Shown one piece after another: positions 14,996-41,598 of a stretch of DNA of 64,000 nucleotides. The stretch is from positions 1-64,000 of the forward strand of contig JAQGDQ010000073.1 of the NCBI GenBank assembly GCA_030141605.1, read 5' to 3'. Each line of letters begins with the position of its first letter. The first letter of the stretch is position 1. Source of the stretch: Tubiluchus corallicola (taxonomy: Eukaryota; Priapulida; Priapulimorpha; Priapulimorphida; Tubiluchidae). The position numbers were made by a program, and so were the translations under genes. The notes under the pieces are model-generated. The model searched no databases, was not told where the DNA came from, and was given only the letters and a program-made list of their open reading frames with translations.

Positions 14996-17900
14996 CTATT
15001 GCAATTGAAAAGTGTCTATGCCTGATGATGTGAATAAATATGTAGCAGAAATACACTGTACAAGAGATTGGTTCACAAATGCAGTTGGAATAAGACTAAT
15101 TTGATGAATGATTGTTTTACCAGAGTTCTCTTGATTGTCGTCGCTGTTCTTCTCTACTATAATCACAGGTGTCAGACTGGCATATTCCTTGAGAATCTCC
15201 GGTAATTCTACTACAGTTGCACCACAGTACCGCAGCAATTCACACAGCTGATCTGCAAATAGTTTGATATTCAGAAGATAGTCAGACTAATTATAATAAC
15301 AGAAGCGACAATCGGAAAACAATCACTCATAATTGCAAAAAGTAAAAATCTCGAAAACGAAAGGGGTTTGAGTGAGTTAAAGAATGAAGTGTATAAAATG
15401 GTATTTCTGGTGCCACATGATGTATGCGTATATTGTATATTTCAAAATAATTTGCTAAAGATAATTTTGGTAAAAACAACTGAATTGTAATTTTTAGTGA
15501 AATCATGCCAGCCATGTTAGGTAAAGCTGAAAAATAAAAATGAAGATGACATTTTGGTGAAAAAAAATGAAAATTAGTATTCCCAATGCTTGTTCTAATG
15601 AAAGTTTTCTGTGCTTTTTTCATACAACGATAGAAATTGAAGTGCCAAGGTCCCCGTAAAAACTATTTTTACTATAATTTTGTCATTAGTCAAGACAGTA
15701 TGTAACCACAAAATCTATCCAGCCATTTTCAACTTTTTCTGAGATGCTGCATCTTACATTTTACTTTGTTTATATAATTAGAGGGAGCTTGTCGAGTACT
15801 CACATTTTTTGGATTATACTTATCAGGAAAATTTTTGTATCCGCATACTCAATTTGAATAATTCACTTCTCTAAGAAACATTCGAATATTAGCTTGCTAC
15901 CACTATAGATGTGTATCATGAATGTGGACAGCTATTGAACATGTTGCCGCAAAAACCTAGGGCCGGTTTCAGAAAGCTGTCACTAAGCCATTGACGTCAT
16001 TATTACGTTCATTTAACTATTAATAACGACATCATCAAATTAGCGATGGCTTGTGAAACTGGGCCCTGCGTTTGATCTTCAACAAGAACAATCTTTAAAC
16101 ACAGTTCTCTTTATTTGTGTTAGATTCAGGTATTTATGATCAGATATTTACACAAACCTTGGACAGACAGTTTGCACATGAGTAGTAGAAATCATGGGCC
16201 AGGTGCTAGAAAATATGAACTGAGTCACTTGGGTTATAAACTGCACTTGTTAGTAAAACACCGAGGAATTCAGCATTAAAATTATATTAAACAATTAAAA
16301 GACAAATTTTACCTCTGGGCAACATAGTAGTGAACGAACCAAAACAGTAGGCCACAATATTCTCCATCAACAAAGTAGTGGTTTGACGTGCTCGCTCTGG
16401 ACCGTAGTGGCTCCGCCCGTTCATAGTATCTCCACGTATTTCGTAGTCGACCTACAAGAGTTTAAACATTTGTATTTACAGTCACACTTTATAGAAATAT
16501 CAATTGTCAAGTATTGATTTTCAGGCAATGATAGGATGTCTTGGAGCTGAACCGCAACTCTAAGAAAATGGCTTTTTTGTAAATCACGGAAAATGATTAG
16601 TTCCCAAACTCCAGAAGATGACTAATGTGCCGCTAGCAAATTTAAAAAGCTATAGTCTTCTGCTAATAAACTTTTTCAGAGCTGTCTGAGCTTAGAAATA
16701 GGTTCCAAATCTTTTCGCGAATCGCGGAAAATGATTAGTTCCCAAACTCCAGAAGACGACTAATATGCTACTAGCAAATTTTAATGAACTAATGATGTTG
16801 AGTAAGTTGCAAAGCAAATTTAAAAAGCCATAGTCTTCTGCTAATAAATTTTTTCAGATCTGTCTTAGCTCTGAAATAGATTCTGAATCTGAGTAATTGG
16901 CCTTAACAGTGAGGCAGAGTTCTAAAATCTTGAATTAGAGGACTTTACTGTCTAATTAGAACATAGAATACTAAGTTTCAGAATACTGTTTTCATTGTTG
17001 AAATTTATCAGGTGCAGGCCCTTTGAACAAATATGCTTTTACCTGATATCGGCAGGTAATTTCAAGCATTGAACGAAATTGGCATTGACAGGAGCATAAT
17101 AAAAAAATCAGCTGCCTCATTCATCAGATTATAGAGTACAGATGTACACCAAAAGCTATGAGATACGCGGCATTATGCACCACGCGTTAAAAAGTTGCAA
17201 AAGCCAAAAATGCAAATTTCATGAACAAGTCTACAACAGTAACAATTGGTTAATACATTATTGTACGTATAGAATATTCAAACATTGCACCGAGCTACTT
17301 ACACACTGAAAATTCTCGGAATTTGCAAAATGAATTAGATTTGTTATTTCTCGTCAGTGAGTTTACAGTAGGATTTTTAATCAGTGAAATATCTTTATGA
17401 AATAATAATTTCTTACAACAGATTTCATGTTGTACTGACCTCTGATAACAGTCTGCCGACACTCAAAGAATCCTCCACCCACTGACATGAAACAACCCAC
17501 CTGCGAGCTGCAATACCTTGAAAGTATTTGAGAGTTCTGTCACAAACTCGATCCTCATCTATATAAAAAAAAACTGCAAATGCTAAATTCTGACAACTTA
17601 CTACATATATATATATATATCATTTTTATTTGAAATCGTGGTACAGTTATATCAAATAAACAAACAAATTAACAAGTAAAATAACATTAATTAAGAAAAC
17701 TAGTAAGCAACGTGAATATGCAATTAAGTGAGAGTAAGATATGTTAATATGGCACACAACTCATTCCTGTCAAAAAAATCAAAACATTTACATTCTAGAG
17801 CCCATATAACTTCTTTAATGAAATTTTACAATTTGTATTTGTCCTTTACTAACATAACTACTTACATCTGATGTACAGGAAAGAACTTCAGAAAAAAATT

Positions 17901-20900
17901 TCCATTTGTGTAAAAAGTTTTGTTCTCGTTACAGATAGATAAATTATAACTCATTGTAGAAGATGCTTGAAATCGAGAATTGTAAAGAAATTAAGAAAGT
18001 AAGTGAACAATAGGTTACAATAACATTGTGTGTGAATACTATAAAAATGTAAACTGACCAAGAAGAAATTTAATTGACGAAAATTTTTTATAAAAAGTAA
18101 TACGTAAATAAATCACAAATTTACCTTTTAGTTGCTAAATTTGAAACTTTCATGATTACCATAAATTATCGCAATATAAACAACGATTATATAAACAAAA
18201 TAGGTTGTATTCGCATCGGAACATGGCTGTCGCATCGTAGAGTACTATCCTCGATAATGAACTGCAGGCTGGTCCTGCCACAATAATTCAACATTAAAAA
18301 AGAAGTCCTGCAGCTGACTTTGGTATTGTAAAACTGACCTAAAATTATCACATAATTACAATAAATAACTATTAATGCTGTTTCAAAGACTGTTATCTCA
18401 CCAGCTTTAATAATTACGTGAGTAGTTGCCAGGGTAAACTTTGGCACAATTTCTGCTCCGATTCTCTCTGCAAATGCTCGCACAGTAAGCTGCAAGGAAA
18501 ATATGTTTCATTTCAGACACAGAAACACGGGCATGCTACTTTACTCAATGTTACAGTTAAATTTTAACACCTATTAAAGTCAAACGTTAAAAACCTACAA
18601 GTGTGAAACTTCACTCAACACATATTTTCAATGTAGTGCAGCAATACTTGAACTGTTAAACTTAGCAGACCAGTAAGTTATCCAAACTTGTATAAAATTG
18701 TCTACCATAATTCAGCCTGTGAGGGAAATCTAAAAGTAATAGCCTATTTAAGTTTTTTCATAAATAAATTGAAATAAGTAAAAATGAACTTACAGCCTGT
18801 TTCTTCATTAAGCCGGAGGTGACAAACACAAAACGAGGTTGACTTTTCTCAAAATCCTTGCAATACTGCACTTGTGAAGCAGTGCACCTCTTTCCACTTT
18901 GAGAAGCTTGTATTAGACTGGCTGGTTCAATGTGTCCTTGAACAACATTTTCTTTATTTGCTACAAATGCTACAGTTGTTTTCTGTCCAGGTGTCATTAA
19001 AACTCTTTTCTCAGAAAGGGGTGAAATTCTCCAGATATTCATCAAGTGTGGGGAACTGGAACTAACAGTGCTGCTATAATTTTCATGTTGTTTCAAGACA
19101 TTGGTCGCAGGCGTATTTACAACCAAAGGTGATTTGCTTTTCTGCAAACATGTTGTTTTAATACCTGCAGGAGTACTAGAGCCATGGAGTTGAATTCCAG
19201 GCGAGATAATTTGTTTAAATTGTGGAACTGCCCTTGGACTACTATTTGGTAGATATGGTGAACTTAGGCCGATTTCTGTTGTAGAGAATCGTTTTTCTAA
19301 TGCCTTGAGTTTGCCATTAGACGAACTCTCCATCAGGTCTTGCTCCTGTAATGTACTAGCTCCTGGTGAAGGATCTGGGACAGGATTTTGCCCAGAGATC
19401 GCTGAAGACAAATCAGGTATCAGTTGGTATGACTGCTGTTCTGAAACCAGTGGAGTTTGTGCATGTCCATCTGCATCTGAACTTTGTCGTTTTTCATTAA
19501 TAACAGCAGTCTCAAGTTTTACATGTGATAATGTTTCAGCTGGCGATGGCTTGATTATTTGTTTGTTCAAAGCCCTTCCTAGGGTGAACGCCAATGGCGA
19601 ATCATTTAAGTGGCAGGACTGCTTCTCTGACCTGTTCGGTAAAGATAAACGATGATGAATGGAGGGCGACATTGCTGCTTTAACACTTGAAACAGATGTG
19701 TGGCGATACTGCTCTGTACGATCATCAGCAGTACTGGATTTCAATGTAAAACTTCCTTGTTGGAAATTTTCTCCTGTGGACTTACAACGAGGTGACCATT
19801 CACCTGTGTCACTGACCCTGCCTGGAGATTGTTTTACAAGTGGATGAGTTTCTTTTTTTTCCACAATCTCAACAAACTGAGAATCTGTTAAGTTATAAGG
19901 GTCATCCTGCCGTTGACTGAAGTCTTTTCTTTTATCGGCAGCACCCTTATTGTTTTCATCTGTTTGAGGAAGTGTGTTTTCTTTCAGCGACTCTGCACCA
20001 CTATTCTTCCATGGAGACAAGGCTATATCTTCCAGTTCTGTCTGTTCTTCCAAAGCATCTGTCAACTCTTTATCACTAGAGGTTATGGTTTCTTGTGTGG
20101 TCTCAACTTCTGCTGCATTTTCCTTTTCTTTACTTTCTCTAAACTCACTTACTAGAGAAGTCGTGAAGCCATTACCTTGCTTATGAGCTCCTTTCTTTTT
20201 GGTTCCTGTAATAACTTTCTTAGGAGTCTCTGCCACGTAGTGGAAATCAGGGGTTGCTGACTTCATGACTGAGCTGGTGGACCTGTGCTTTCCTTCAAAT
20301 GAAAAGTCAGGTGCATTTGGCTCTATGTCCACATCAGTCAGCAAACGAAGAGCTGTAGAAGCTGGAAACTCATGAACAGGAGAATTTACAAACAAATCGA
20401 CTTCGGTGGCAATGACTTCATCTGCATTATTACCAGTTTTATCATTATCAACATTGTCTCCGGCAACTGCATCTACATCAGTCATGTCTGCATCACACAA
20501 TTCAGGTTCACCATCATCAAAGTCCAGCCCCTTCAAGAGCTCTTCAGAATCTTCTTCGCTTGAATTGCTACAATTAAGCTCCACTTTTGAAGGAACATTT
20601 GCAGTCTGCAGAGCATCGTGAAGATCATGGTTTTCTGTAGATGACATTTTTTCAAGGCTTACATCTTGGTGAAAGTTAGACAGATGATCAGTTTCAAAGC
20701 CATAATGATCATTGTCTTTGGCATTTGCAGCAGCAAGATCATCATCTACAATTTCGTCACCTTCAGTAAAATAACTTGTGGACAGAACACATTCATTTAG
20801 GTTTTTTACGGACTCACTACTTTTATTCTCTCTCATAAAAAGATGGCCGTCTAATGCTTCACATAAGACTTTCTGACTTTCTGGACCTTTTTCAAGAAAG

Positions 20901-23900
20901 TCATTCATTGGACTACAGTCGTTAAGTTTGCTTTCCTCAGAGATTACAGCAGCAAGTTCAGCATCCGTCATATCATCGTTTTTATCAAGATTTGCAACAG
21001 ATGTATTAGCACTGATCTTCGAATTAGAATTCGTATGCAGATCAGGATCTTTAATGTGCAATGTCCGGTGTTGGGAAATTTTGCTTTCAGAAACAGTAAC
21101 AGCAGCAAGGATATGGTTGCTTAGATTACCATTGCCATTTATGATACTATTGTTCACAACTTTGCAATCACTGGTACCACTATTAATAGTGTTCTTTTCA
21201 TTTTCCCTACGATTTTCGCCATATTCAGTAACCAAAATATCATCATTGTTATTAAATTTGTGCTTTACATCACACCGTGTTTGTAGTTCAGTGCCTGCAA
21301 TACTACTGGCATCAGAAAGATTGCTATCAAGTGTGGCAGGACTTTCAAGTTTTACAGGTGAGATAAAATTCATGTCCAATATGCAAACTGGATTAATGTT
21401 CGACTCCTTGGATTCGTTTTTTTGGAGACGTGAGCATATGCTATTAACATGAGTTTCAGCAAGCTTAGCATTGATATCTGTTTCCGGAACACTGTCGCCA
21501 AATTCTGCATCACATATATCATGATCATGCAAATTATCTGCCATTAGCTCAATGCTATTTGCCTTTTCAAATGCAATAACCTGCTTTCTATCATCCGACT
21601 TCTGAGAACTGTTATCACTTTTCTGTTTTTTGGTCTTCTCCTCTGTGTGGTTGCAGTGAGATGTAAATTCAAAGCTAGAACCATCTTTTAGATCACTTTT
21701 ACAGGCATTTTGATTTTTAGTTTCATTATCAAAAGTGATATTTTTTCCTAATGAAGATGGATGATGTACCGTTTCTTTAGTTTCCTCTGAAGCTACACTG
21801 TCACCAAACCTAGTTTTGATAGTCTGCTCATTGTGAAGAATAGGTTCATCAACAGTTTTGCTGATTTTCTTAATCTGTCTGCTAGGGTCATTTGCATCAG
21901 CGTCACATTGATATTTACTTTGCAACTGCTCTTGAAGCAAGTGTATTTGGGCTTGCAGTAAAGTGATTTGTGCTTTTAAAGCCTGCTTTTCTGGATCGTC
22001 TGTACTCAGAACTTTTGGAACTATCAAATCCTGTTCTTTGGAACAAATTTCCATTTCTTCATCACATTCACCGAAAAATGGAATTAACTTTTTACTAGAA
22101 GACTGTTTCGAAACTGATGTCAGGTTGTTCATAGCAGTGCCACTATACTTATCACTCTTGTCTTCCAAATTGAAACCCATTGATTCCAACTGTTGCGGGC
22201 AAGAAAGTTCCTCGACCAAGAAAATTGGCTGCTTTCCTGAACCCTCTTGATCTGTATTTTTTAAATTTTCCTGTTCAATTTTTACTATTTCTCCTGAAGA
22301 GAGTGTTTGGATGATTCTGCATGAAGGCTCTTCTAGAACTATTTCATGGTGTATTTGTTCACTTGCTGTGCTGTTAATACCATCATCTATGTATGGGGTA
22401 GTGAGAGCATTTTCTTCAGCATTATCACAGACAAAAGCATCAGCCTCGTCATCATTAATAGTCGGTACTTCTTGTTCTTTTTTACACTTTGGAGTGCTTT
22501 TAAGTTTGCTGCTTCCGTGGTCTTCAAAATTGAGTTTTTTAGGTGTTGGCACCCCGGTGACATCAGCTTGAATGTTTGCAAAGATTCGAGCCATCATTTC
22601 TGGTGTGTCTAGAACATTTGCTGGTTTAAGCAGAGATGACGAGTCTGTGTCTTCATTTTCAAATCCAGTGTTACTTTTGGCAACATCAACTTGAGCTGCT
22701 GTAAAAAAATTCCAAAGAAAAAATAAAAAAAGTGGAAATGTTAACAAAATGTAATAATCGTGCTGATAAAGCAGAACAGAAAATGTAATAAAAGCTAAAC
22801 AAAGCAAACTGTTATTCTAAAATTATTACGAAACTGTGCAAGTCATAGAGAGCCTCTCGTAAAAAACTGTCGGTTTTAGTGCGACTCCTTTATAGTTTTT
22901 CATAATGCAGTAGGTCTTATATTTTTTCAAAAAGCTATGTCTACAAATACATAACTTGCTAATAAACACAGTGACCTTAACTAACCTTTATGGGCACCAA
23001 GCTGTAGCCGCGTACGCTTTGGGTCAGAACGTTGAGCTCGAGGAGTAAATGAGACTTCTAGAGGAGACTTTTTTCTGCAGCTAATGTTGATGTTGTTGTT
23101 TTTTCGAGACGAAAATGAGCAAGTACTACTTGGCGTAGCTAGGTTTTTCCTGATAAAAAAACATTTTCGTGTTACTGACAATCTTACATGTTAGATAATA
23201 AACAAAATCTTACAATGCTAAAGACTGCAATAAGAACCTAATGCTATCTACATCGAAAGTGAATGCTTGCAAAGTAATCCTCAGAAAATAAACACGTCAC
23301 TCAAATAAAAATTTTTGTTTTTAAAAAAATCAGGCCACCATGTAGCTAAACAACTCTTCTCCAATTACATGATAGAAGCACTAAAAATAAAATACTGATA
23401 AACTAACCTTGGTGAGTCATCTTCGATGTCTTCTGTAGGACTGAAAAGCCATGTATGAGGTAAAACTGCACAGATGTCCACTGACAATTCTGCAGGTGAT
23501 TCTGGTGATTTCAACACGTCTGGGGTCTCAGAAAGGGCAACAACTGGCATCAATGATCTTACCCCCTTTGTCAGCCTCCTAGGTGACAGATCAGGCAAAT
23601 CTGTTGCCATCTTCAGCTCATCAGAAGTGTCTGCATTCAGGGAACTGTCAATTGCATCAGCTCTTTTAACACTCAACACATCTGCTATAGCTCGACAAAA
23701 ATCTGTTTTCTGAAAGGTGGTGGTCACTATATTTTCATCTACCAAATCTAGTGAGAGATCAATTTCTTCTGAAGATGTTTTATTACGCTTTCTGATCACA
23801 TCAATGCTATCCCTTGTCCCCAAGTGTCTGACTGTTCCTGATTTTCTTACAATACTGCCTTCAGAATTAGATGATCCTGGAACTTCTTTGTCATTTTTAT

Positions 23901-26900
23901 CCATCGTGCTTGCTGGTTTTACATTATCTAATTTTGTCCCCATGACTCGAGCCCTTCGAGTAAGACCTCGGACAGTTCTGCGGCAACTTGAAAATGAAGC
24001 ATCTTTGGATTTTTTATTACTGTTGGTTTCTTTTTCACCAAAAATTGAAGCTGTACTTTCTGGAATTTCTTTCTTCCTTTTCTCTGAGAAATTGCTAGTG
24101 CTAGTTTTCTTTTGACTAAGAGATAAATCAGACCTCTCAAAAATGTCTCCAGTTTTCATAAAATGTATGGATGTTTGATCAACACCTTTGTGAGGCAGAA
24201 CATGCGTTACTTCGCACTCATTTTTGGCACTGGCTTGACTTGAACTTTTATGACGTGTCCTCAAAGATGGAGTAGGAGAAATTACACAACTTCTCGAATC
24301 TGGTGAGCTGGTGCAGCTTTGTTCCACTACTAGTTCGTTTTCAATATTAACATTCTCCAAACCAACTTTCAAAGATCTCTGGCTCTTGACTGGAATGCTA
24401 GCTCGATATTCATCAGTCACCATCACAATTTCGATGTCAGGCTGCTCACTTGCTAATTGCTTTGGAGGAAGTGGTTCTCTTTCTGCTGACCCTGAGTGGT
24501 TTAAAGTTTGACCTGTTGCAGAAGGTTCCTGCATGTTCACCAGTGCATCATTACTTGATGTTTCAGTTGAAGATAATGTTACAGTAGAGCTGCCACTTAC
24601 TGAATGATACAGTTTTTCATAATCACTGCCTTTTGATTTGTTACTAAATCCAATTGGACTTTCAGTAACTTGAGGCTGGCTTTTCTCAAGTTTACTGGTG
24701 TAATCTGTTTCTTCCTTTTTGATACTGGGAACCGTTTGAGCAGGCATAGTTGTTTGCAAATTTTTTTCTTGTACTGACACCATAGGATCCAAAGTAATTT
24801 TCATCTCATAATTTCTGGGCTCTTTCCTTTTTTGATCGGTTGACACAGAAGATGAACTTGAACTCAGTGCAGCCGGACATAGTTGCTCAGATGCCAGTAA
24901 AGCAAATTGATCCTTTAGTACAGCATCTGTGTGAACAGCAGCATTGTTTAAATTGCTGTTAGTAGGTGGTAATACTGACAGCTGTCGATTTTGAATGTTA
25001 GACACACTAGGAACAACATAACCTACTGTATTGGAATTAGATGGCACAACTTCCTTAATATGAAAGCCAGACTCCCGCTTCAAGCTCTGTTCTTGCACCG
25101 CAGTGTTGTGTAGCTGCTTAACGCGACTAATTTCATTGGTCAACAAAGTGGGATCACTTTCGATATCACGTTGTTTTTTAAAACGACTAGGATGGAAAGA
25201 AGATTTCTGCATAAAATTTAGGAATGGAATAACATTTCTCATTGGTTGACACAGAGTACTTGTAAAACTGGTAGTATTTTTGGTAGAAGAAATTGCTTTT
25301 GTACCCTCAAGGTGATTCTGTGAAGAGCTTAAATCATCACTTTGATAAAGAGTTGATTTACTCGTTTCACAAGGTTGACTTTGCTCACAATGCGCCAAGG
25401 AAGTTTCTTTCCGCTTTTCGACATCAGGAAAAACAACTTGTGGTTCTGCTAGAGAACATTCTGCTTTCACCTTAGTACTTCCATCACTAGCTTGATTATC
25501 AGTAACATGTTGATGTCCATCACACAACTTTATTCCAAAGTCATCCAATGCAATTTTCACCTCATCATCTCTGGGCTCTTTCTTTCCTCGCTCATTTGAT
25601 ATAACATTACGAATGGAAGCAGAAGTCACTTCCGGATCATTAGTATTTCCATCACTAGTTTGACAATTAACTATATTAATATGTTGATTTGCATCACACT
25701 GCTGGTTTTCACAGTCATCTCGACGTTGAAAAATGCATTCAGTTACTTCTAAGCTGGTTTTAAATGGATGTAGCTCTGCCCTGCCTGGCTTTATAAGCAA
25801 CTCTTCTTCCGAGTTTACCTGCTGACTAGTAACTTTTTTAAACCTTCGTCTCAATGATTTTCTGTCTTTTCTTTTCACCTGCAAACACTCATCAGACGAA
25901 AGATGTTCACTGCCACTTAGTTCACTCATCATAGAGTTGCTGGCATTATGGCTATCCTTTCTATGTTTAAAAAGAATTGGAGCAGAATAGTCAGTACTTG
26001 GTGTACTTCTACTAGGTGATACGAAATCATCGGATGACGATGAAGCATTCATCTTTTTACTGGAAGATTGTGGCTGCTTGTCTAAAAGCTTTTCTGACAT
26101 CTTCAGAGATGTGTCTGTCATTCTGGAATCATGTGAAGTATTTAACTTTGTTTCAATGTCAGTAATTGCTTCTGAATTAGTCTCCTTCAATAATATTTCA
26201 GCCTTTAAATTTCTGGACTGCTGTTCCATGATATCACCAATCTTTTGCACTTCTTCACACACTGTCTTTAAAGATGCTCCTTCTTTGCCAACATTTTTCT
26301 TTGCCATTTTGCCACTAACTTTGCTTACACATTCCTGTTTCACATCGAACTTCGTGTTGAAATTACTGTTAATACTTCCAGAAGGAAAATGAGCAACACT
26401 ATCTGCAATAATGTCTTCTACTTCCACAGAAGCTCTGCCACAACCTTCTTTAATCTGATTGTCATAAGGAGTCAATTTTTCCTTAGGAATCTCTAATAAA
26501 GTATCATGTGTCCCAGTTATGGATGAAGGACTAGAATCTTGTGGACTCTGTAAGCTACGACATATGGTTCGTTCTTCCACATCTTTTGCATACATTTCAT
26601 CAATGTGTGCCACAACTTCACTTACAAAGTGAAGGTGATTTTCACAAGTGAGATCAGAAACAGGTAGCTGCCTTTTTGTAAGTTCAAAGTCAGTGTCACT
26701 TAAATGACATTTGTTTTGTACCCGTTGTACGGATGGTGCAATAACATCATCACTTGTTCCAGATGATTGGTCTTTCTTTTCTTTATCCAAAATTGCCGAA
26801 TCTACCAGACAGCTCTCTTGCATACCCGGCAATGATGCATCACAATCAGCATGAGAAATATTTTCAATGAGACGTAATCTACATTTTCCATATCCTTTAC

Positions 26901-29900
26901 CACTAGCAGATGTCATCAAATTTCTATTAGCATCCACATTAAGTTCTTCACTAAAATTGACCCTTTCCATCTCTTTATTATTGGCCAAAGCAGCATTTTT
27001 CTTTCCACTCACATTGTTAATGCCAGCATCATTCAGTTGTTCAACTGAAATCAAATCTGCTGTCTGATGCCAAGATTTTAGTGTTTCATTTTCTGCACGT
27101 CCAGTTTTCCCTTCAGCCGCAACTCCTTCAACTGACGATAAGGCATTCATTTCTTTACCCGAAGATTGCGTATGTTTCTCTGCAAATTTATTTGGGGTAC
27201 AACATTTGAGCACTACTGAAGGACGCACTTCTTCTGCCTGTTTGACAATGCTGTTTGACGCATCTTCGACTGCAGTCGTGCAGAAAGATTCAGTATCTAT
27301 GTCAATACATATATCAGATTCTACATCATTTTCCTCACCAGAAGTCAAGCTACCTACCGCCTTAACATCTTTCACATTTTTCTTTGTTTCAACAGAAATT
27401 TCTAAGTACTTGCTTTTTACGTGAAATTCTTTGGCCATTTCATCGGTATTTAGCCACTCACCACGTTTGTGTGGCATATCTACAGCCCCAAGATCTTGTA
27501 AAGTTACTTTGTGTGTAGAAAGATGGCGTTTCCGCTTAGATCTTTTTGTTACACTGTAAGTTCGTATGTTTTTAAAGCAGCTGTCTTCACAATGACTGTC
27601 AAGTTTCTTTACAGCAATCTTGTCGTCAACAGTTTCTGCATTTACATCAGAAACAGGTAGCAAAGAATGATCTTTATTTTCAACATCTTTGTCTTTTTCT
27701 GCACGATAATAGTGCTGTACAATACAATTTTCACTATGAGAATCATTGTCATTATTACTGTCACTTTCTGCACATTCTTTAGCATTTGGCTCGGATGACT
27801 CATCTTTATTATCTGTTTTCTTGAACGAAATCTCGTTATTCAAACATTCACCACCAGAAACACCAGACTGCTCACTGACAACATGATTAGGTTTGGTGCA
27901 GACTGAAAGACTGTCATGGTCATTACTGTATGTTTTTTGGCCATCCGTCAAATCAATGATATTATCATCATCGTTGTCACTATCATCATCTTCCTCGGAA
28001 CTTGTTTGTTCTTCAGAATATTGCCCAGTTTTATTTTTATTTCTTGTTGATCTTCTAGTTGGGATTTTCTTGTAGGAAGATCTCTTCTTGCACTTTTTTG
28101 AAAAACTGCTATTGGTTGAAGATTTTGTCTCTCTTTTTAAAGGAGATTTTTGACTAAGTGGAAATGCATAAGGATCTTCTTCAATATCATCAACTATAGT
28201 TGTGACAATTGTGGGTGTGACTTTAGGAGTGACTTTTCTATTTTTCTTTTTTCGACTGTTTTTCACTATTTTTCTTTTTCGACTTTTCCTCACAGGTCCC
28301 AGACTATAATTGTAAATTTCCAATCCACGATTTGCTTTTGGGAAACCGTTGCCTTTAACTTCATTATCCAATTGTGATACAATCATTGCATCTGCACTAT
28401 CAGTGGAACTATTGGCATTTTTCTTCAGTTGACATGCATCATCTGGAGTTGCTGGAACAGCTGTGGTTTTCTTGTCATTTATTGCTTCCTTTTTTGCCAA
28501 AGAATATTTAGCAACTTGTTTTTCTGCAGTAGTGTGTGTAATTACTTCAACAGGTTTAACTGTTTCTGATTCTGCAGACAGGCATTCAGTCGCTTTCTTG
28601 TTTGTAGCAAGATTTCTAGTGGCTTTCTTGCCTACAGTAGGATATTTAATAATGACTTCCTTCTTTGCAAAAGAACATTTAGTTGCTTGTTTTTCCATGT
28701 AAAGGCATTTACTTATTTCATCTGCTGTAGGACTTGCGTCAGTATTGTTTGAATCTGTTGCAGAATTGCTGCGATGAACATCTACTGCAACTAACAGTTT
28801 CTTGGGTGAAGAGACTGAGATATCATCAGGCAATTTATGGCTGGCACTTACAACACAGGAAGAAGCATCTTCATTGGAAACAGCATTAAATTCTGACCCA
28901 TTCGAGGAGTTTTGAATCGTGAATTGGGCTGGACAACCACTATTTGAAGATGTCATGTGAATTGTTTTGTCATCATGTGCCACGCATCCTTTAGCTCTTA
29001 CAGTAAATGTGCTACTATTTTCTACCACTGCCTTTTTTGTGCTCACATTATTTATTGTAATATTGTCTCTCAGAGAAAACCTCACAGTTTTAGTTTTTGC
29101 TTTGGTAGCTTTTACTTTCTTATCCTCAGGGCCTCGTTTCTCTACTGTAGCCTGTAGAGCCTTCTGTACCACATTAGACTTTTCTTGGACAATTTGGCTT
29201 GCCACTGGCAAGCTGAAATTTTCTGCATCGGAAATTTCATTTATTAGCTGTTTCAGTTCTTCTGGTGTTGTCACCCTTTCTTCTTCCTGTTTCTTGTGAA
29301 CCACCAAAGAGTATGCACGGTGTTTTTTTCGTGTGAGACCCAAAGACGACCTTCGGTTAAGATGTTTCTTCATGGTTTCAGGTGTTCTCTGACTCAGAGG
29401 CATTTTATGTAAACCATTATCTTCTGGTAGGTCTCCATAAGCAGAATACTTAGTCTCCAAAGAATTGATGGGGCCAATTGCTTTTTCTTTGTCAAATTCA
29501 ATCCTTTCATTATCAGTGGATTCATGTAAGTCAGTTTGATCTCCATTTCCTAGCAAAACAGCTTCCACTTGTAATGTACATCTTGTTTCCGTATCACTAC
29601 CAAGTTTGTACTTATTTTTCTTGTCTGCAGGATGCAGAGTTTTTAAACTAGGTTTTGTGTTTGGTAAAGAATCTACAGTTTTGTTATGACTGCCAGGTAA
29701 CAAGGTTTCGAGTTTCTTCTCGAGTGCCGTTAACTTGTCGTTTGCGGAATCACTACTCTCAGCTGCTTGTTTCGAGACTCTTACGGGCTCTTCATTCACC
29801 CGACATGCATTGTCAATTTCAGTCAAAAAGTCGTTACAGGTATTATGTTCTAGCACAGATGCACACTGAACCCTATTTTCTAAAATAAAAAAAATCAACA

Positions 29901-32900
29901 ACACATTATTAAATACACCTGAAATAAATCTACCTATCAACGTGTTAGGTGCAATTGTAACATATTACTGGATCATTTTACAGTTGTGCTTCTGATGTGA
30001 AATAAACGCCAACCGTTGCACCGCACATGGGTGTTTGGGAAGTGCCACAGAACCACAAGTGACAAAAGCTGCCAATGGGAGTAGGTATTACAGATGTACA
30101 GTTTAAAAGCACAATTTAGAGGTCAAACACAAGTAAGATAAAACATATACTAAAACACAAATTATCATCATCAAAATTACCATTACTGTGAAATAAAATA
30201 TGATAGAACAGGCAGTAATATATTAAATTATTTTTCCATAACCTAAGCATGACACCTTTTGAAGAACAGCAACAAATACTAGAGGTGTTGAGTTCCTACC
30301 TTTGTTTTCTTGCAAACGCCGTGCAACCGGTGCTTTACTTCTCGTTATGGACGACACACAATTTGCTGCATTTTTTCCTGGATGACTGGGTGACCGTTTG
30401 CCACGTACTGACTTTTTTCTTGCAGCTTTCGGAAAACCAGAATGGACATTCGTGTTTGTTGAAATTAATAATCGTTGGTCGGTCTGCTCTTCCACATCTA
30501 AATATAATGATTAAGTTTAATTAAACCGTCTAATTAATTAGTAAGTCATTTGATGTAGGCAGGTATGAACCCCGAACAGACATGGGGCTTCTCATGCAGG
30601 AATGAATATGCTAGAATGTAAGATTTTAATCAGTTACACCGAAAGGCAATAAAAAAGCAAATATAATAATAACGGATCTGCAAACAAATCATCTAAATAA
30701 GTAAAATAATAATGTTAGCATACATGTTCCGAAACAAATGCAAAAAGAAAAGTGGTATTGCTTACTGAATGGTTCTACATGAAGGGACTATTAAAACATT
30801 ATAAATGTATAGCAATTATTATCGGACGATCAACTCAGCTAGATGAAATCAACCAAACTCAAAGGATGACATGACATTAAAAAAAAAGAAAAAACACAGA
30901 GCAAAAATACAGTGAAATTGGGGGGGGGGGACAAATTTCAAAATCTAAGCAGTTGATGAGTGTGTCGAGAATCCAAATGGTTAACTTTCCAAGTAATGAA
31001 CAGAATGGGATAATAACAACAATATATGTGAGAGGCAAAGTAATGAAGAATTTACCTGGATCAGCAAAGATAATTACGCCATTCTCTGCTTTCCTACGTT
31101 TTGCCTGTCTTAGATTCTTTCTATTCTTTCCAAAAATGAAAGATGAATCGTCCTAAAAATAAATGACATCTCAGAAGTTTTAAATCTGTACAATTGATTT
31201 AATAACTCTTTGACAAAGACTAAATAAATGACTAATACCACAGAATTCTATCCAGAAATTAGAAGTTCAGTAGAAAATACTGAATCTGTGCTTGGCGAAT
31301 TTTTATTAGCTCCATGTGTAAAATAACTGTGCCAAGTGGAGAGCTTTCTCGGAGTTCGCAATGCTAAAGAACAATCACCTTCAGTAGATCAGCAATAACC
31401 TTTTGAGGGATTCTACTCGTGGTGTGAGACAACAAAACTAATCTCAACCATGGAAATATATGGAAATAAATGATAACAGTGATCAAAATTTTCGATGGAG
31501 ACAAACAATTACTAAAAAATTAATTTCTCAAGAACCGTAACCTTACCAGAATACTTGCTTAGAAAGTAATGCTACAAGTGCTATCAAATTTGTACTATAT
31601 GAAATATCTAATGTACTTACACTATCTAATTCTTCAACTCTTCTTTTCTGTGAAAACTTTGTTGGTTTGTTGGAGTGATCTTTGGCATCACTATCAAATG
31701 TATTTAACAGATTTTGATAAACCAGTAAAACATCTTGAAGGTCGCTGTTACTCAGACTTCTAAATTGCAATCGCAAAAAAACACAGTTAACAATCAGTTT
31801 TGTAAAAACAGACAAAAAACTCAGATGCATAAGTGTTGTCCACTGAAGATCCATGAGATCCATTAAATCACACTACCTTGTGGCTTAATTTCAAATAAAA
31901 ATATCTAATGCTTACTTATCAAAGCACCTTTGACGAAAGTATCATTAAGATACAATAAACATAATACAATATTACATAACATAATATAACATGTACATTA
32001 TAATATAATATAAGGACATTGACAACACAGTGGTAAATGGCCAAGCATTATTTTTATATTAGACCTAATTATGACAGAAAAACAATTGTGTCTAATAGGA
32101 TATAGAGAGATTTGAGACTTTAAAAATGATGCTTCACACCTATCTATCAAGCATGGGTAAATGAGGTAAAAATGGTGTAATGGAGTGTTATGAAGAATTT
32201 ATTATTTCCAGCACGTAAATGACAACTAGTTCAGAGCACATGTACAACAAGAAATCATATGTGTAATATCCCGTGGCGGGCAATACTTCTGACTTCAAGT
32301 AATCGCGATTACCGATTACTGTCAGTCAGTAACCGTTACTGAGATCACGCAGCAGTAATTGACCCAGCAGGGACGTATATAGAGATCTGTGCTCCCGGCA
32401 CCCAGAAATGCAATGAATAAACACTCGTCTTTAGCGAACTTGCCCATAACAATCAGCAGTTTATACTTTGGTTTCTATAGGCCTTGCTTATAATAAACTA
32501 TGAGACTTTTAATATTTAAAATAGCATCTTTAAGCAGAGTTTTAAACCCATCCGTGTTTATAATTAATCATATTCATTCAGTGCAGCATGTTATGCTGCA
32601 ATTAGTGTTTTTAAAAAAGTAAAGATAATTAAATAAGTCCCGTGGTAATTATGTACGATTCAAATGTGTTATTAATTTTAGAGCAAAATGTACATGTACT
32701 TATAGACCAGAAAATGCCCTTTCAGCTGATGTAGTCTGACATCATTATTAATCTTTACTGTTCTATAATCGAGGGATACTGAGGGGAGTTCATTTTTTAC
32801 AATTTTCTGAAATTTATTTGACACAAAGTTCTGAAGTTACCTACATTAAATGCTTAACTGTGCCTGCAAATGATTTTTTGCTCCATTAGTAACATGCAAT

Positions 32901-35900
32901 TTGGTTATTGTGTGATTGAGTCACACAATATCATAGTTAGGTGTTTATCAAATGACACGCTGTCTCATAGAACAGCAGCAGCAAGGACAGGCTCAGTTTT
33001 TCATTGCCGAGGTAGAGAAGTGTGACCAGCAGAAAGGTACAGAGTCAGCGCTTTTGCCAGATCGCCTACAATGCCTGTACATGCATATTAAAGTTCAACT
33101 AAAGTCGCCATCAAAAGGTGGAACTATGCGAGATTTGTATTTGAGAGTGTTTAGTGTTCACGTCCGCAATTTCTCCGTCCAAATTTTTCCTTTTTTGTAT
33201 TTCAAAATTTATTATAAAATCTTAGACACAAAAGTAATCGATTACTTAGGAAAGTAATTGATACTAAAGACTCGCGGGTAAGTAATCGAAGTAAACGATT
33301 ATGCCCACCACTAATGTGCAATAATACACTTGTTCACCTTTTTGTTATGTCTCTGTAGCAGATTGGGCAAGGAAGTACCCGTTTTTTTCTGTGATAAGAA
33401 AATGCATTCATGATGCAACATCTGCAAGAAAACAAGCACGATAAAACAGAACAGTTTACAGCAATCAAAATTAAATATGTAAATAAATTACTTGAGGACC
33501 AACAAGGTGATCACAGTGTGAGTGATCTTCATAATCAAAATTAAACAGTATTGAGCCAGGTCAGTAAGTAGATATGTGACTTTCAAGAAAACTACTTCTT
33601 TGTAGTTTTACCTATTATATTGATCCCAGGTATTTACCTCCTTGAAGAAGGATTCAAGTACACGAGAACCTGACTACTACATCTCTGACAGTTCAATGTC
33701 TTAGTGGATTATACATGATAATGAATCAGTTCTACCACAACTATCTGCATGCACATTAAATAGGTCTTGTTGTTGAGTGTTGGTCTCAATCCGCAGAGTG
33801 CTGAAGTGTATGTAACAGCTGAATAATGTAGAATGACATGTAAATGCAGTCATTAAAAAATAACACTACTACCACCACTGTTACTACTGCTAGTACTACC
33901 ACTACCACTACTACTGCTGCTGCTGCTGCTGCTACTACTACTATGATAAAAAGCCCAATCATACTACACACAGAATTATGCATTATAGTTTCTATGCAAA
34001 TCTCAGTGGGTGAAGAAAAGTACTGCATATACAATGTTCTCAATCTCTTGTTGCCGTGAGGATGACACCAATTATGTACCAAAGCACTACAATGTGTTTT
34101 CAATAATACTGTACTACAGCTTACGTTAGGTAATTTAATTAAATTGTCATTAATTAAGCATTCTACATTTATTCAGGTCTGTGTGCTGACTGCCAAACAC
34201 TTGCAATGCAAAAACACTAGCAAGTGACAAAGAAGAGTGTAAATTTAAGCAAGATAAGTCTATTTAGCCTATATCTATGCTCTTGAGAGCTGAAATTTCA
34301 TTTCAGGTTCAGTCCATGTACCCAGATAGTAAGAGTGGTCTCTTACGCTCAACCAGAGCCTTGTTATGTTTAGTAAAGCATTTGCTATGAATCGAATAAT
34401 TTTGTAAACAGTAAAGTTGTACCTGCAGAAATGGTGTTCACACTCTGTAGCAACTGGGTCCTTTATTATATCCAAACTGCAAAAAATGTAAATAAATTTT
34501 AGTAATAGACATTGAGAAAATGTGTGAAGCATATAAAATCTACTCTGTGAATCACTAAATTTACAGCTTACTGAATTGCAAAAACAACATTACAAATGAT
34601 TTAATCAGACTTATTAATGCAGCATATAACAATTTGTTCAAGGCTTTTATCTAGAAAACTGCAGGTGCTTGGAATCTGTAATCAACTTCATGCTTGGACA
34701 GAGAATTCATTAGCAACAGACCACAGAGTGAGGGTCGATGAGTCAGTATCGTAATGAGCATATGTCCTCAGTGGAATTCCACAAGGTAGTGTGTGGCATC
34801 CAGTGCTGTTGATATGTTATATCAATGACCTACTTGATGTTGTGAACTCACCATACAAATTATTTGTTCAAAACACAAAACTGTTTAGAAGCATGAGTGA
34901 TGCTCATTAGTGCCTGCAAGATGCAACAATAACCAGCTGGTAAAAAATGGCAACTAGAATTCAGTAAAAACAAATGGGGTAAAATACAGAATACCACATC
35001 TTGGTTTGGAGGTTGACGACAAACGTCTGGCAGTTGAATTTAAAAATCTGAACGTTGATTAATATTACATCATGCGAAAAGAAAAGCTAGCAACTACAGT
35101 GAAATATTGTCCTTACTTATTTGACAATACTGTAGCAAAAGTCCATGTTGTTCTGTCACATTTATGGTGATTTTAAATGGATTTCGTTAATGAGTCCAGA
35201 TTACAGTGTAGCAAGAACAAATGCCCAGGCAGAGCAACAGCAGTAGGGTTTTATTTTACTTTGCAACTTGCTTTGCATCTGCATTTCTCAGGCGAAATAT
35301 AACTTGTGGATCAGTAAAATAAGTCCGAATCCACTAAGTCTAGATACTGTACTTCATTTAAGTCACAAAAAGCTGTATCTTGCAGACCAATTAAGGCTTA
35401 GTATAATGATTTACTTGAAAAGATGTTTAAGTGACGAAATACTTGTTTATACCTAGTTAAGTAATCCAGTCTCTTACGACAAACTTAGATTACAGAAAAA
35501 TGTAATTGCCATGTGTGCTAGGGTGCCGATTTTTATCAATACTTGAAAATATTATGAAAATAGACATTTGACATAAGCGGCCATGAAAACTAGTCTGTAT
35601 AACCGGGTGCTGTTTTTAGACTTTGATTGACCGAAAAGAACGAGCTTTCACTGTAGCCAGTGTTACAGCGTTTAGTAGTTTCTCCAGCTTGCCTGAGCAT
35701 GTGGCATGGGAATTTCTTGAAATCTGTGCAGACAATCACAAAAAAGCTATTTGTGGAGTATTATAATTGAGAACTCTATTAAATTAGAAAATGAAAGACA
35801 AAAAGACAATTGAATTGAATTAAACTAGGCAACTACAGTCAAGTCAAATCAAATCAAATCATTTATTTTTTCCCCAAACATAAAAACAGGCAAAAGAATA

Positions 35901-36723
35901 CAATTCATAAGGACAGCAATGTAATAAATACTTAAAACACTTCATAAGTTTTTAACATGAAGTATTTGTAAGTTATTGCAATGTACGTTAACAATTTTAG
36001 AAGTTTTTTTTAGTTTTAAGCTCTGATTCTACTTAAACACTGTAGACAAATTTAAATGAAAAACCAGTTTAGATCCGGATCCATATGCAAAAATCCGGAT
36101 CTGGCAAACATGGATTGTCTAGATGTACGATTCGCAACACGTTAGGACAATTATAGACTGGTTATATTGGGATGCGAGTAGAGATACGCGTTAAATCTAA
36201 AATACTTGGCTCGCTATTAGGACCTTATTCAAAGAAATAAGAACTTAGATGTAAGCAAATAAATACCTATACCTTTTAGTACCCTTCGGCTACCCTGTTC
36301 TTAAATAGTCGCAGTTGTCCTTCACATGTGGATAGTTTCGATGTGTAAAAAACCCTTCAGAGTTATATTATACATACTATTTAGTAATTTGATTTGTTTG
36401 CGCTGACACAACACATAAAAACAAAAAAATGATTTAACGTATTTACATTAATTATTATATTAGTATTATTACATATATATGATATAGTAATTAGTATACT
36501 ATAAAACATAGGAGCTGATAGTTGGTGGTTTATGGATGGAGCTAATAGTCCTAGCATATTACCGTAATTATAGTAGAAAGGCCAACATGAACAGTCAAAG
36601 CATAATTTTGGAAGAAAATAACTAGAAACCTTGTGGGTTGTACATCAATTACACTTACCACACAGGACATTCCAAGTTTTTCTTCAGCGAACGCAGGTCC
36701 TCGCGAAATTTAACATCAGTCAT
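14996..36723 (-). CDS. BRCA1: BRCA1 homologue: RING E3 ubiquitin ligase with tandem BRCT domains, 13 coding exons, about 3,926 aa
   Basis: Coding exons from 5' to 3' (plus-strand coordinates): 36659-36723, 34423-34476, 33338-33421, 31621-31759, 31056-31152, 30300-30497, 23408-29879, 22986-23149, 18794-22698, 18402-18489, 17440-17558, 16313-16451, 14996-15252. Every junction is GT-AG, all phases agree, and the total is 11,781 nt, divisible by three. The N-terminal C3HC4 RING and C-terminal BRCT pair align closely with vertebrate BRCA1. No ankyrin repeats are seen, which argues against BARD1. Family role: a nuclear E3 ligase with BARD1 that acts in homologous recombination and checkpoint signalling. 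Human BRCA1 has 1,863 residues; the excess here is in two giant exons encoding disordered, Ser/Lys/Glu-rich sequence. A non-coding first exon may lie upstream, because ttattttcag precedes 36757. A missed in-phase micro-exon cannot be excluded. Confidence 0.93.
15253..16312 (-). other. BRCA1 last intron
   Basis: It holds the palindromic MITE at 15960-16066. The frame at 15327-15623 has no recognisable similarity. I see nothing else. Confidence 0.6.
15960..16066. mobile_element. Short palindromic MITE with GGGCC termini, about 107 bp
   Basis: The left end reads gggccggtttcagaaagct and the right end, reversed, gggcccagtttcacaagcc. The arms continue with matching blocks (tgacgtcattat against gatgtcgttat), so the element folds almost completely into a hairpin. 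It lies in a BRCA1 intron. The superfamily cannot be decided; no clear target duplication is visible. Confidence 0.65.
16581..16890. repeat. Diverged tandem duplication in a BRCA1 intron
   Basis: Two copies start at about 16581 and 16719. They share cggaaaatgattagttccca, ctccagaag, gactaat, ctagcaaat, tagtcttctgctaataaa and ttttcaga. The second copy carries about 35 extra bases (tttaatgaactaatgatg and following). The period is about 138 bp. Confidence 0.85.
17559..18401 (-). other. BRCA1 BRCT intron
   Basis: Contains a (TA)n run at about 17604-17621 followed by catttttatttgaaatcgtgg, which looks like the reversed 3' tail of an old LINE. No coding potential is seen. The intron just downstream in the gene (16452-17439) holds the tandem duplication described separately. 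Confidence 0.4.
18794..22698 (-). other. BRCA1: BRCA1 giant exon 2, 3,905 nt, with candidate coiled coil and start of BRCT1
   Basis: About residues 2425-3726. Near its 5' end (21910-21998, about residues 2658-2687) lies a leucine/isoleucine heptad segment, LKAQITLLQAQIHLLQEQLQ. This fits the position and character of the BRCA1 coiled coil that binds PALB2 in vertebrates. Then come about 1,000 acidic, disordered residues with recurring short motifs (AELAAVISEESK, HILAAVTVSESK, DDDLAAANAKD). The last residues, FVFVTSGLMKK, are the first BRCT strand. The 3' boundary is GGCT|gtaagt, in phase 0. In human this stretch is split over several small exons. Confidence 0.9.
22986..23149 (-). other. BRCA1: BRCA1 164-nt linking exon
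   Basis: Flanked by tttatcag and G|gttag. It joins the AG left by the previous exon (AG+G gives Arg) and leaves one base for the next. It encodes about residues 2370-2424, with basic stretches such as SSRKNNN, CRKKSPLE and SDPKRTRLQ. No domain is recognised. Confidence 0.85.
23408..29879 (-). other. BRCA1: BRCA1 giant exon 1, 6,472 nt (counterpart of vertebrate exon 11)
   Basis: An uninterrupted 2,157-codon stretch, about residues 213-2370, bounded by ttttattttag at the 5' side and AG|gttagt at the 3' side. Human BRCA1 also has an oversized central exon of about 3.4 kb. The product looks disordered: Ser, Lys, Glu, Asp and Asn dominate. Visible elements are a strong basic cluster KSRKRKIVKNSRKKKNRK (about 28240-28296), a likely nuclear localisation signal; KRSKRKRH near 27520-27545; an acidic run ending in IIDLTD (27943-27960); and scattered S/T-Q and S-P sites. 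Several segments are degenerate copies of each other. The apparent methionine further upstream at 29940 is intronic. Confidence 0.9.
30300..31759 (-). other. BRCA1: BRCA1 post-RING region (three exons)
   Basis: Exons 31621-31759, 31056-31152 and 30300-30497 encode about residues 69-212. The first continues the RING C-terminal helix (SLSNSDLQDVLLVYQNLL), which in human packs against BARD1. The next two are basic and low in complexity (KNRKNLRQAKRRK, RSKAPVARRLQENKG) and I recognise no domain in them. Their membership rests on splice sites, matched phases and continuity. Confidence 0.8.
31760..33337 (-). other. BRCA1 intron after the third RING exon
   Basis: About two thirds of this intron is the hAT-like element at 32267-33313. 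The rest shows no feature I can name. Confidence 0.6.
32267..33313. mobile_element. hAT-like non-autonomous element, about 1.05 kb
   Basis: The left end reads ccgtggcgggcaata followed by repeated aagtaatcg, cgattacc and gattactg motifs. The right end, reversed, reads tagtggtgggcataatcg followed by tacttcgattactta. The TRGTGGYGGGCA terminus with GTAATCGATTAC-rich interior is the familiar look of hAT MITEs. Near-identical octamer-like strings, atgtgtaat before and atgtgcaat after, may be the remains of the 8-bp target duplication, although a few extra bases sit at the left junction. The frame at 32952-33257 inside it is not transposase-like. Confidence 0.65.
33422..34422 (-). other. BRCA1 intron between second and third RING exons
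   Basis: Apart from the trinucleotide microsatellite at 33863-33944 nothing is recognised. Confidence 0.5.
33863..33944 (+). repeat. Imperfect (ACT/ACC/GCT)n trinucleotide microsatellite
   Basis: About 82 bases of act, acc and gct triplets, including six consecutive gct units. It lies in a BRCA1 intron and creates frames such as poly-Thr/Ala on one strand and poly-Val/Ala on the other that are not genes. Confidence 0.9.
34690..35150 (+). mobile_element. Decayed LINE reverse-transcriptase fragment
   Basis: From 34764 one frame reads VLSGIPQGSVWHPVLLICYI and then NDLLDVV and KLFVQNTKLFRS. This is the RT palm signature (SGIPQGS, YINDL, F-x-DDTKLFR) with the catalytic FADD changed to FVQN. After a frameshift, KWQLEFSKNK at 34944 matches the WQLEFN-NKC box. 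Stops and shifts break the rest. It sits antisense to BRCA1 in its first coding intron. Confidence 0.75.
35838..36060 (-). mobile_element. LINE 3' tail remnant with (TGATT)n end
   Basis: On the plus strand gtcaaatcaaatcaaatcat is followed by ttattttttccccaaac. Read on the minus strand this is an A/G-rich 3' untranslated end closing in a pentanucleotide repeat, typical of CR1/L2-like elements. No coding part is recognised. Confidence 0.4.
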
Positions 36724-36966
36724 TGTCACCTTAAAGTTCAATAGAAACAGCGGCCTTCTGAAAATAACTTATAATTATATTTTCACTTTCTTATCACAAA
36801 AGAACAGAATTGCAAAAAAACTCCCAAGTTGCGTATTTTTACCATTGCTTTCGTTTTTCGCGCAGTTTAAGGTTTGGTATATTTTTCGCCATCTAGTGTT
36901 AATGATAGAGAAAATTGGTGAAGCATGGGTTTTCTACGACCATTTCCTACTCTAACAAGTAAAGGC

Positions 36967-37500: not shown

Positions 37501-38283
37501 ATACTGCATGCAAAGGCCTGAAATTGGTTTAAAGTACCTTTTAAAGTAATACAATTTCGCTAGTTAATGTATTTACAATTTTTTGTTAGGATTGTGCATG
37601 TTGTTTGATTTTTTTACATAATTATTGTAAACTGATAATTACAACTGCATGATGGAATGTTTTCCATATTTTTATTTTATATAGAAATATATATCTGATG
37701 ATATAATGATATTAATTATTATATATATTAGTTACTGACTGTATCCACAGATTGGGATACTGATTATGTATGACTTTTTCTTTTACGATCGTCTGAGCAT
37801 GAAATTAAATTGCATGTAATATTATTTTCCCTAAGCTCATTGAGTCATTAATTAACGTTGATCTGTAGCATGATATCATAAACAGTTATATTTTCTTATT
37901 TTTTCTACTTGAAATGAATTATTGATATTTAAGTCAAAATTATAGTAACAATTTTGTTAGTTTCTGGTAATTTTATTTTCGTTTTCTAGTTAAAAATTAG
38001 ACAATTTTATGTATAGAAAACACAGGCAAATGTAGTACGTAATTAATTTCTAATAATTTTTTTAATAGTTACTTCTTTTTTAATATTACGGTTTATATAC
38101 ATATAATAGTACATATATTTACCGTTTGTAATGTATAGGTATACTTCAGTTTATATACAATTAATATGTATTTACAGCACTGCATAATATTAATTTAATA
38201 CTCAGCTTGGGGTGGTTGATTCGATAACTAATGTTTTTGCCACCCTTTTGAGACTACTGATATGTTGATTTGCATGCCTTAAA

Positions 38284-39209
38284 TCGCATGGAGATGGAGA
38301 CATTTTTGACCTACGTCGACTCAAAGCAAGGACGAAGACACGAATGATGTTCCTGCGTGAAGCGCAATATGCCGATGACATAGCTATCTTCTCTGACAAC
38401 CCGGAAGACCTTCAGGATCTAATCAACATTTACAATGAAACTGCAAAGAGAATGGGACTGCGCATTAACAAAAGGAAGACTGAGACAATGAGTGTCGGAT
38501 CTAGCGACAGTGTCAATTTTACCATTGACGGAGAACAGCTTGGAAGTGTGCAACGGTTCAAATATCTAGGAAGTTGCATCTGCTCAGATACTCGATTGGA
38601 TACTGAGCTTCATGCAAGAATTAATGCTGCAGCTCTTTCGGCTGTATGAGGAAACGTGTCTTCGATAACCATGACCTTACCATCGCCACTAAACTGCAGG
38701 TGTAATAGCAATGCATCATTCCACAGCTTACCTATGGTCAGGAAACGTGGACGCTCTATCAAGATCAGGTCAGGTCTCTCCGTGCGGTTCAGCAGAGACA
38801 TCTGCGTCACATCCTTCGTATTCGCTGGGACGACTATGTGCCAAACGAAGATGTGCTGGCTCGTGCCAAGATGGAAGATATCGAGGTTACGCTTACTAAG
38901 GCTCAACTTCGGTGGTTTGGGCATGTGGTCAGAATGAACGATAAGAGACCGACAAAGGCCCTTCTCCATGGAGAACTAACCAGTGGCTCTCGTAGTGTTG
39001 GTCGTCCTCTCCTTCGCTTCAAGGACAAGGTGAAGTTCTCTCTGAGGAAAGGTGGAAAGTTGGACAAGCTGCCTTTCGCAGTTCACGACCGTCCTGCATG
39101 GAGATCCCTAGTCAACAACTGTGCCAAAAAACTCGATGAAGAAAGACGGATGCTTGGATACGCAAGAAGGTTCAAGTCGTGGATAAGAGATGGTTTCATG
39201 GGCATATGA
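38284..39209 (+). mobile_element. Inactive non-LTR reverse-transcriptase fragment (palm, thumb and C-terminus)
   Basis: The frame starts near DIFDLRRLKARTKTRMMFL and includes the catalytic box QYADDIAIF, then KRKTETM and RFKYLGS. At about 38645 a one-base shift changes frame, and after MRKRVFDNHDLTIATKLQV two stop codons in a row follow. It continues with LTYGQETW, LRHILRIRWDDYVP, LRWFGHVVRM, GRPLLRFKD and WRSLVN to 39209. The same order occurs in RTE-like/BovB-type and similar animal LINE proteins. The endonuclease part is absent, so this is a 5'-truncated, dead copy. Its G+C content is visibly higher than its surroundings. Confidence 0.85.
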
Positions 39210-40291: not shown

Positions 40292-41598
40292 ATAATTTAT
40301 TTAGGTTGTCCATTGTGCACCCGCACCAACCCTTGGCCATGGCACAAAATCCATCAGCTCAAATTTTCACGCGAAGAGTTCTCATATAGGTAATATGAGA
40401 AAGACAAGTTTTGTCAATGTTCGCATTTTTCGCAATTTTGTCTGAAGTTTTTAGTTTGACATTCGCGAAATTATTGTGTGGTCAGCTTTTTCCGGTCAAA
40501 GTGTATTAAATTAAAACATTTACAGCAGTGTAAACATTTACTGTAAACAGTTACAGCAAGTTTAGTATAATGGAGGGGCAAATAGCACATTTGCCAATAC
40601 TTCTATTTCTGGATAATGCCCGTGTCACACAGAGCTGGACATAATCCGTAAGGTGTAAACCAAGCAGCAAAAGGCGCTTTACAAAAAAATGAATATGCAC
40701 TGATCAATAGGCCCTGTCACGTAGATGATCCATTTGCTGCCTTTCGCGGTTTGCCTACAAAGGCGTATGCCATAATCCGCGGTACACTCCTTAATTTTTC
40801 AACAACAGTTCATTGTACTTTATCTTGGCTGGTGTTGTAATGGGGTAAATTTATTATGTTAAATAGACTTTTGGCACAGCAGATGCATTGGTGGATGGCA
40901 GTAGGCGAGGTTGGCGGTATTCCCAAATATTTAATATATTAATTATTATTATTACGGAAATCTGGTCTGGACAGGGCAATAGTTGGCATTATGGTGAGGC
41001 TGGCATTATACAGTAACAATTAACTGTGGTTTCTATCATTATTAAAATATAGTAGTTTTGTGCCTCTGTTAGTTATATGCTAGTAACACAGAGCAAGCCG
41101 CATACCACGGATTATGACATGTACCTTATGGAAGACACCTTATGGCTTTACCTGAAATTGTACAGCTTTCATTTTAAAATTTTCTGTGATATTACACATA
41201 CTGGTGTACTTGCACACCTTTTTGATACAAAGTAATTTATATAATACATATTGTGTTTTGGAGCAAATTCTTACCTATACTTTGAGTTTTATTTTGTTTA
41301 TTGCAGTTTTGTTCGAGCTGGTAATTTATTTAGTGTGAAACATTTGGTATTGTTTCAGTTCTGAAAGAGCTCTTTCATGACCATGGAACTGTGCAGGAAT
41401 CACCTGAATTGTTGTTGAGCGAAAAGGATTTTTATCTGTCTGTACTGACTCACTGTGTACAGCACACTGTGTATGTGGTATGAGTGAGTGTATAATCTCG
41501 ACCTATTATTGTTCATTCTTGAGCTTTCAAATGGATTCGCCTATGATATTTTTTTTAATCTGTTATTATTACTGCATTAAATACTAGTTTAATATGCA

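Follow-up and report, generated by a model that had tools for sequence, protein, structure and literature searches.

The window analysed here, the first 64,000 nucleotides of contig JAQGDQ010000073.1 of the priapulid Tubiluchus corallicola, very probably carries an intact and apparently single-copy orthologue of the DNA-repair gene BRCA1 that encodes about 3,926 residues, with standard ends and a long, predicted disordered tether between them. The gene lies on the minus strand, from 36723 to 14996, and was rebuilt as 13 coding exons that add up to 11,781 nt, that is, 3,926 residues and a stop codon (Table 1). All 12 introns, 258 to 2,182 nt long, are of the GT-AG type and their phases are consistent throughout; the exons, junctions, phases and protein length proposed by an earlier sequence-only reading were reproduced at identical coordinates. 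Introns 1, 2, 3, 9, 10, 11 and 12 are anchored to human BRCA1 by homology. For introns 4 to 8, and for the short exons 5, 6 and 8, in which no homology was found, placement relied solely on phase, an open frame and splice signals. Beyond exon 13 there is one signal of the AATAAA/ATTAAA type, beginning at 14939. At the other end, an acceptor-like TTTTCAG is found at 36758-36764 on the minus strand, 34 nt upstream of the start codon, which points to a probable additional 5′ untranslated exon; human BRCA1 also has a 5′ untranslated intron.

Table 1. Coding exons and a candidate structural element of the Tubiluchus BRCA1 gene (positions in the window).
Feature	Coordinates	Strand	Content
Exon 1	36659..36723	-	Start codon and first part of the RING; ends in Cys22 (human Cys27), phase 2
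Exon 2	34423..34476	-	RING
Exon 3	33338..33421	-	End of the RING; ends in Arg68 (human Arg71), phase 2
Exon 4	31621..31759	-	Beginning of the post-RING region; RING alignment extends to residue 76
Exon 5	31056..31152	-	Short; splice signals and phase only, without homology
Exon 6	30300..30497	-	Short, 198 nt; in-frame skipping possible; without homology
Exon 7	23408..29879	-	Giant, 6,472 nt, about 2,157 residues, most of them predicted to be disordered
Exon 8	22986..23149	-	164 nt; 55 residues with 3 Ser/Thr-Pro sites
Exon 9	18794..22698	-	Giant, 3,905 nt, about 1,302 residues; its 3′ end lies within BRCT1, matching human c.4986
Candidate coiled coil	21908..21991	-	Within exon 9; residues 2661-2688
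Exon 10	18402..18489	-	BRCT1
Exon 11	17440..17558	-	BRCT1; RTLKYF phosphopeptide-pocket motif
Exon 12	16313..16451	-	BRCT linker and beginning of BRCT2
Exon 13	14996..15252	-	Remaining BRCT2 and stop codon

The identity of the gene is established by its two ends, in both of which Pfam finds the expected families on the spliced sequence (RING, and BRCT at 8.3e-16 in two stretches). When residues 1-139 were compared with solved structures, the top four matches were BRCA1 (1.7e-17 to 8.1e-17, within the best 60 of 68 matches), led by 1jm7_A (1.7e-17), and the next protein among the matches listed is TRIM30 (2e-10). In the alignment to BRCA1 chains that we take to be human, all eight zinc ligands of the C3HC4 RING are kept and 30 of 65 residues (46%) are identical in the aligned part; human L51, K65 and I26 are replaced by A, Y and V, respectively. 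With the last 232 residues, which hold the tandem BRCT, as query, 27 matches were obtained, headed by 18 distinct BRCA1 sequences (2.6e-38 to 8.7e-35), and the first matches to other proteins are microcephalin (1.2e-7) and then BARD1 (3.5e-5). Identity to human BRCA1 is 38% (70 of 183 residues, with the gap placement of HMMER), and the seven residues checked, S1655, G1656, R1699, T1700, K1702, F1704 and M1775 in human numbering, are all kept. We take these to be residues of the phosphopeptide pocket, and the roles of the RING residues named above are likewise assumed. The human residue names in the available text of one study (Cys44, Cys64, Arg71, Asp1692 and Cys1697) agree with the numbering of the aligned chains (PMC6772163). 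The alignment to the human BRCT stops near query residue 203 of 232, so the final part of BRCT2 is, judging from this alignment, diverged.

BARD1 has the same fold, a RING with a tandem BRCT. BRCA1 is far closer: the BRCT match to BARD1 is weaker by many orders of magnitude, the BARD1-type RING model zf-RING_6 reaches 28.2 bits, under its cut-off of 35, and no ankyrin repeats, a feature of BARD1, or any other Pfam domain were found in the giant frames at E values up to 0.1. In the reciprocal direction, the human BRCA1 BRCT searched against the 343.5 Mb genome found exons 12 and 11 of this locus best (2.9e-6 and 6.1e-6), with a sole other match at 0.28. A plain BRCT family scan of the whole genome gave 10 places, none inside the 64-kb window, because the BRCT of this gene is split over several exons. 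Both the assignment to BRCA1 made from the letters alone and the remark that resemblance is clear only at the ends are borne out by these comparisons.

The exon structure provides further evidence of orthology. Seven of the 12 introns fall inside the parts that align with human BRCA1, and in all seven both codon and phase are equal to those of the human gene. The matching human positions are c.80, 134, 212, 4986, 5074, 5193 and 5332, taken from the names of splice variants in the available text of PMC6772163, where 134 and 5332 are inferred from c.135-1 and c.5333-6. The Tubiluchus gene and human BRCA1 have in common a RING, a tandem BRCT and seven intron positions; the shared introns suggest that the split of the domains into exons is older than the divergence of the Tubiluchus lineage from vertebrates. 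The two genes differ in that the Tubiluchus gene has fewer BRCT introns; by the human positions as we take them, it lacks two or more additional introns that the human gene has within the BRCT alignment.

The extra length had been attributed to exons 7 and 9, and both proved to be open and coding along their length. Exon 7 presumably occupies the place of human exon 11. Neither giant exon contains an in-frame stop, although base composition predicts about 7% stop codons; from composition alone, the chance of a stop-free frame is about 10^-69.5 for exon 7 and 10^-39.5 for exon 9. When the six frames were scored with the codon usage of two other genes in the window, the coding frame was the best in all 16 scoring windows (10 of 10 in exon 7 and 6 of 6 in exon 9), so that no long hidden intron is visible in the 9,600 of 10,377 nt covered. 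Exon 9 leads without a break into BRCT1, at the boundary that corresponds to human c.4986.

Several sources of this length were considered. Gene fusion was rejected, since no Pfam domain was found in the giant frames at E values up to 0.1. Capture of a transposon was also rejected, because the queried stretches are single-copy: a DNA search of the 343.5 Mb genome, which omits simple repeats and very common words, found no second copy of 3,801 nt taken from exon 7 (the part 23408-25999 of this exon lying outside the query) or of the whole of exon 9. As for large tandem or recent duplication, BLAST of the whole protein against itself returned the self match only, 20 overlapping pieces compared with the whole gave 18 short off-diagonal matches at E values up to 1 (the best of 22 residues, 0.006), and the only tandem repeats found in the giant exons are a pair of two-copy arrays (21 and 27 nt). 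Since these self-similarities are only short and weak, the length was not made by large recent duplication, while old and strongly diverged duplications may have contributed. The added residues seem to be an enlargement of the tether, which is disordered to judge from its composition.

By a simple charge-hydropathy index, 68.6% of the 51-residue windows of the middle are scored as unfolded, compared with 15.3% of those of the RING part and 0% of those of the BRCT, in line with the disorder ascribed to the giant exons by the sequence-only reading. The counts of 14 distinct motif patterns were compared with shuffled sequences, and only two stood above them. Ser/Thr-Pro dipeptides occur 54 times in residues 213-3711, where 30.1 are expected and none of 1000 shuffles reaches 54, while the reversed Pro-Ser/Thr occurs 31 times for 29.9 expected; S/T-P-x-K/R motifs number 11 for 3.8 expected (1 of 1000 shuffles). 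Read from the site list by eye, the S/T-P sites appear grouped at 2311-2525 and 3197-3660. This excess is an independent sign of selection on the protein, and it supports a translated and regulated tether. An excess of S/T-P is common in disordered nuclear proteins, so it does not prove control by CDK. The SIM-like pattern leans low (52 of 1000 shuffles as low). SQ/TQ sites, whose ATM/ATR-type cluster is a feature of vertebrate BRCA1 that we do not take as defining for BRCA1 across animals, are not enriched as they are in the human protein: the middle has 21 where shuffling gives 29.4 (38 of 1000 shuffles as low), and no cluster was found upstream of the BRCT, with a maximum of 3 in any 100 residues. 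The best heptad window of the whole protein is the candidate coil at residues 2661-2688, a score equalled or exceeded in 66 of 200 shuffles. Against solved structures it gave weak matches to other coiled coils (best 0.18), none of them BRCA1 or PALB2, and Pfam returned coil-like models, including FlxA, below threshold only. It is possibly the counterpart of the vertebrate coil that binds PALB2, a reading without statistical support.

According to a further, tentative and rather unlikely reading, the middle has been rebuilt as a tether controlled by cell-cycle kinases, with proline-directed sites in place of the vertebrate ATM/ATR cluster, in a genome in which PALB2 was not found. The exon-level genome search for PALB2, which is a weak one, gave one place (0.446) that by eye we take to be a CDC20-like WD protein. 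BRCA2 is present, with three exon matches above the cut-off on C730 (best 2.2e-14). BARD1 was not found by similarly weak exon-level searches with the RING model PF14835 and the human BARD1 BRCT and ankyrin queries. PF14835 gave eight places at E values up to 1 (best 0.067), of which the best two were read, and the best is by eye presumably a TRAF-like gene; the BRCT gave one place (0.02), which appears by eye to be an MCPH1-like gene; and the ankyrin query gave 144 places (best 7.2e-31), of which the best one was read and is, we assume by eye, an ANKRD11/12-like gene. That neither BARD1 nor PALB2 turned up speaks against the BRCA1 reading, though searches this weak do not demonstrate absence. 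In searches on the lineage of the animal, neither cox1 nor a molluscan haemocyanin domain was found; the control for the latter likewise gave no match. PALB2 itself arose late, before the emergence of vertebrates, according to the available text of PMC3969565.

A main product shortened by alternative splicing is unlikely. It would arise either by skipping exons 7 and 8 together, which are jointly divisible by three and whose loss would keep the frame and leave 1,714 residues, or by splicing at a site inside one of the giant exons. Vertebrate BRCA1, including the human gene, is known for isoforms in which exon 11 is skipped. Nevertheless, skipping exon 7 alone breaks the frame, and the coding signal and the S/T-P enrichment extend throughout the giant exons, so the full-length protein is probably produced in at least some cases. 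That the locus consists of two adjacent genes, one with the RING that stops after exon 7 and another with the BRCT that begins near exon 8, is very unlikely. If exon 7 is read beyond its donor, a stop follows within about 15 codons, and the middle offers no homology that would bridge both ends; however, each end matches BRCA1 first and has human intron positions, introns 7 and 8 (258 and 287 nt) leave scant space for one gene to end and a promoter to follow, the phases are consistent across both, and this arrangement would require a split inside a BRCA1 orthologue. A pseudogene or an assembly artefact is hardly credible in a window without any N, for a frame of 3,926 codons without a stop in which every splice site, every zinc ligand and each of the seven pocket residues examined is intact.

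A single, full-length BRCA1 gene being the preferred reading, its size can be set against known proteins. Like the Tubiluchus gene, human BRCA1 has a large central exon; its protein has 1,863 residues, so that the Tubiluchus protein is indeed about twice as long, as had been claimed relative to vertebrates. The middle is about 2.4 times longer (10,541 nt in exons 7-9 for 4,316 nt in human c.671-4986, where c.671 is the start that we took for the human middle). Among the orthologues of one published survey, in its available text, BRCA1 ranges from 612 to 2,942 residues, with similarity at the ends only, and the longest is that of the owl limpet Lottia gigantea (V4AQT9, 2,942 residues; PMC8483008). 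The limpet protein is likewise an enlarged invertebrate BRCA1 conserved at its ends only; by length and published description, that of Tubiluchus is longer by some 1,000 residues, about a third (PMC8483008). No mention of a BRCA1 above 2,942 residues was found in the literature searched, chiefly titles and abstracts. The suggestion that this protein is among the largest BRCA1 proteins fits that one survey, as far as its available text goes, without giving it a rank among all BRCA1 proteins. Since an invertebrate BRCA1 of 2,942 residues is already published, the size is less surprising than first implied, and the Tubiluchus protein is, on the survey as available, a larger representative of a type already described (PMC8483008).

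The remainder of the window contains other genes and remains of mobile elements. On the plus strand, close upstream of BRCA1 and in opposite orientation, one frame with a RING and three SH3 stretches (41593-43194) is followed by a further SH3 downstream (44564-45259), all by Pfam; we take them to form an SH3RF/POSH-like gene. An intronless frame of 1,182 residues at 6558-10106 (+) carries PTB/PID, DUF3350 and RabGAP-TBC domains (Pfam) and is presumably TBC1D1/TBC1D4-like. The best other genome match of a 266-residue piece of it is just 28% identical, so this frame may be the sole copy of the gene, with intron loss or replacement by a retrocopy as possible reasons for its lack of introns. LINE-type remains are seen at 706-2580 (-), with an endonuclease domain (Pfam), and at 38269-39209 (+), with reverse-transcriptase-like frames recognised by eye, of which the scanned frame 38709-39209 has no Pfam match. 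Frames at 55037-55539 (-) resemble by eye what we take to be the ribosome biogenesis factor LTV1.

If the protein works as its parts suggest, the N-terminal RING would pair with a BARD1-like partner to form a ubiquitin ligase on nucleosomes, and the tandem BRCT would recognise partner proteins with pSer-x-x-Phe motifs. Between these domains, some 3,500 residues from exons 7 to 9, a long disordered tether by their composition, probably hold RING and BRCT together at break sites and, because of the strong Ser/Thr-Pro excess, probably carry cell-cycle phosphorylation sites. In human BRCA1, no region is less well understood than the middle. In the distant Tubiluchus orthologue, whose ends are standard, this region is more than twice as long, which makes it a natural experiment on whether its length, charge and phosphorylation sites count there, rather than its sequence.
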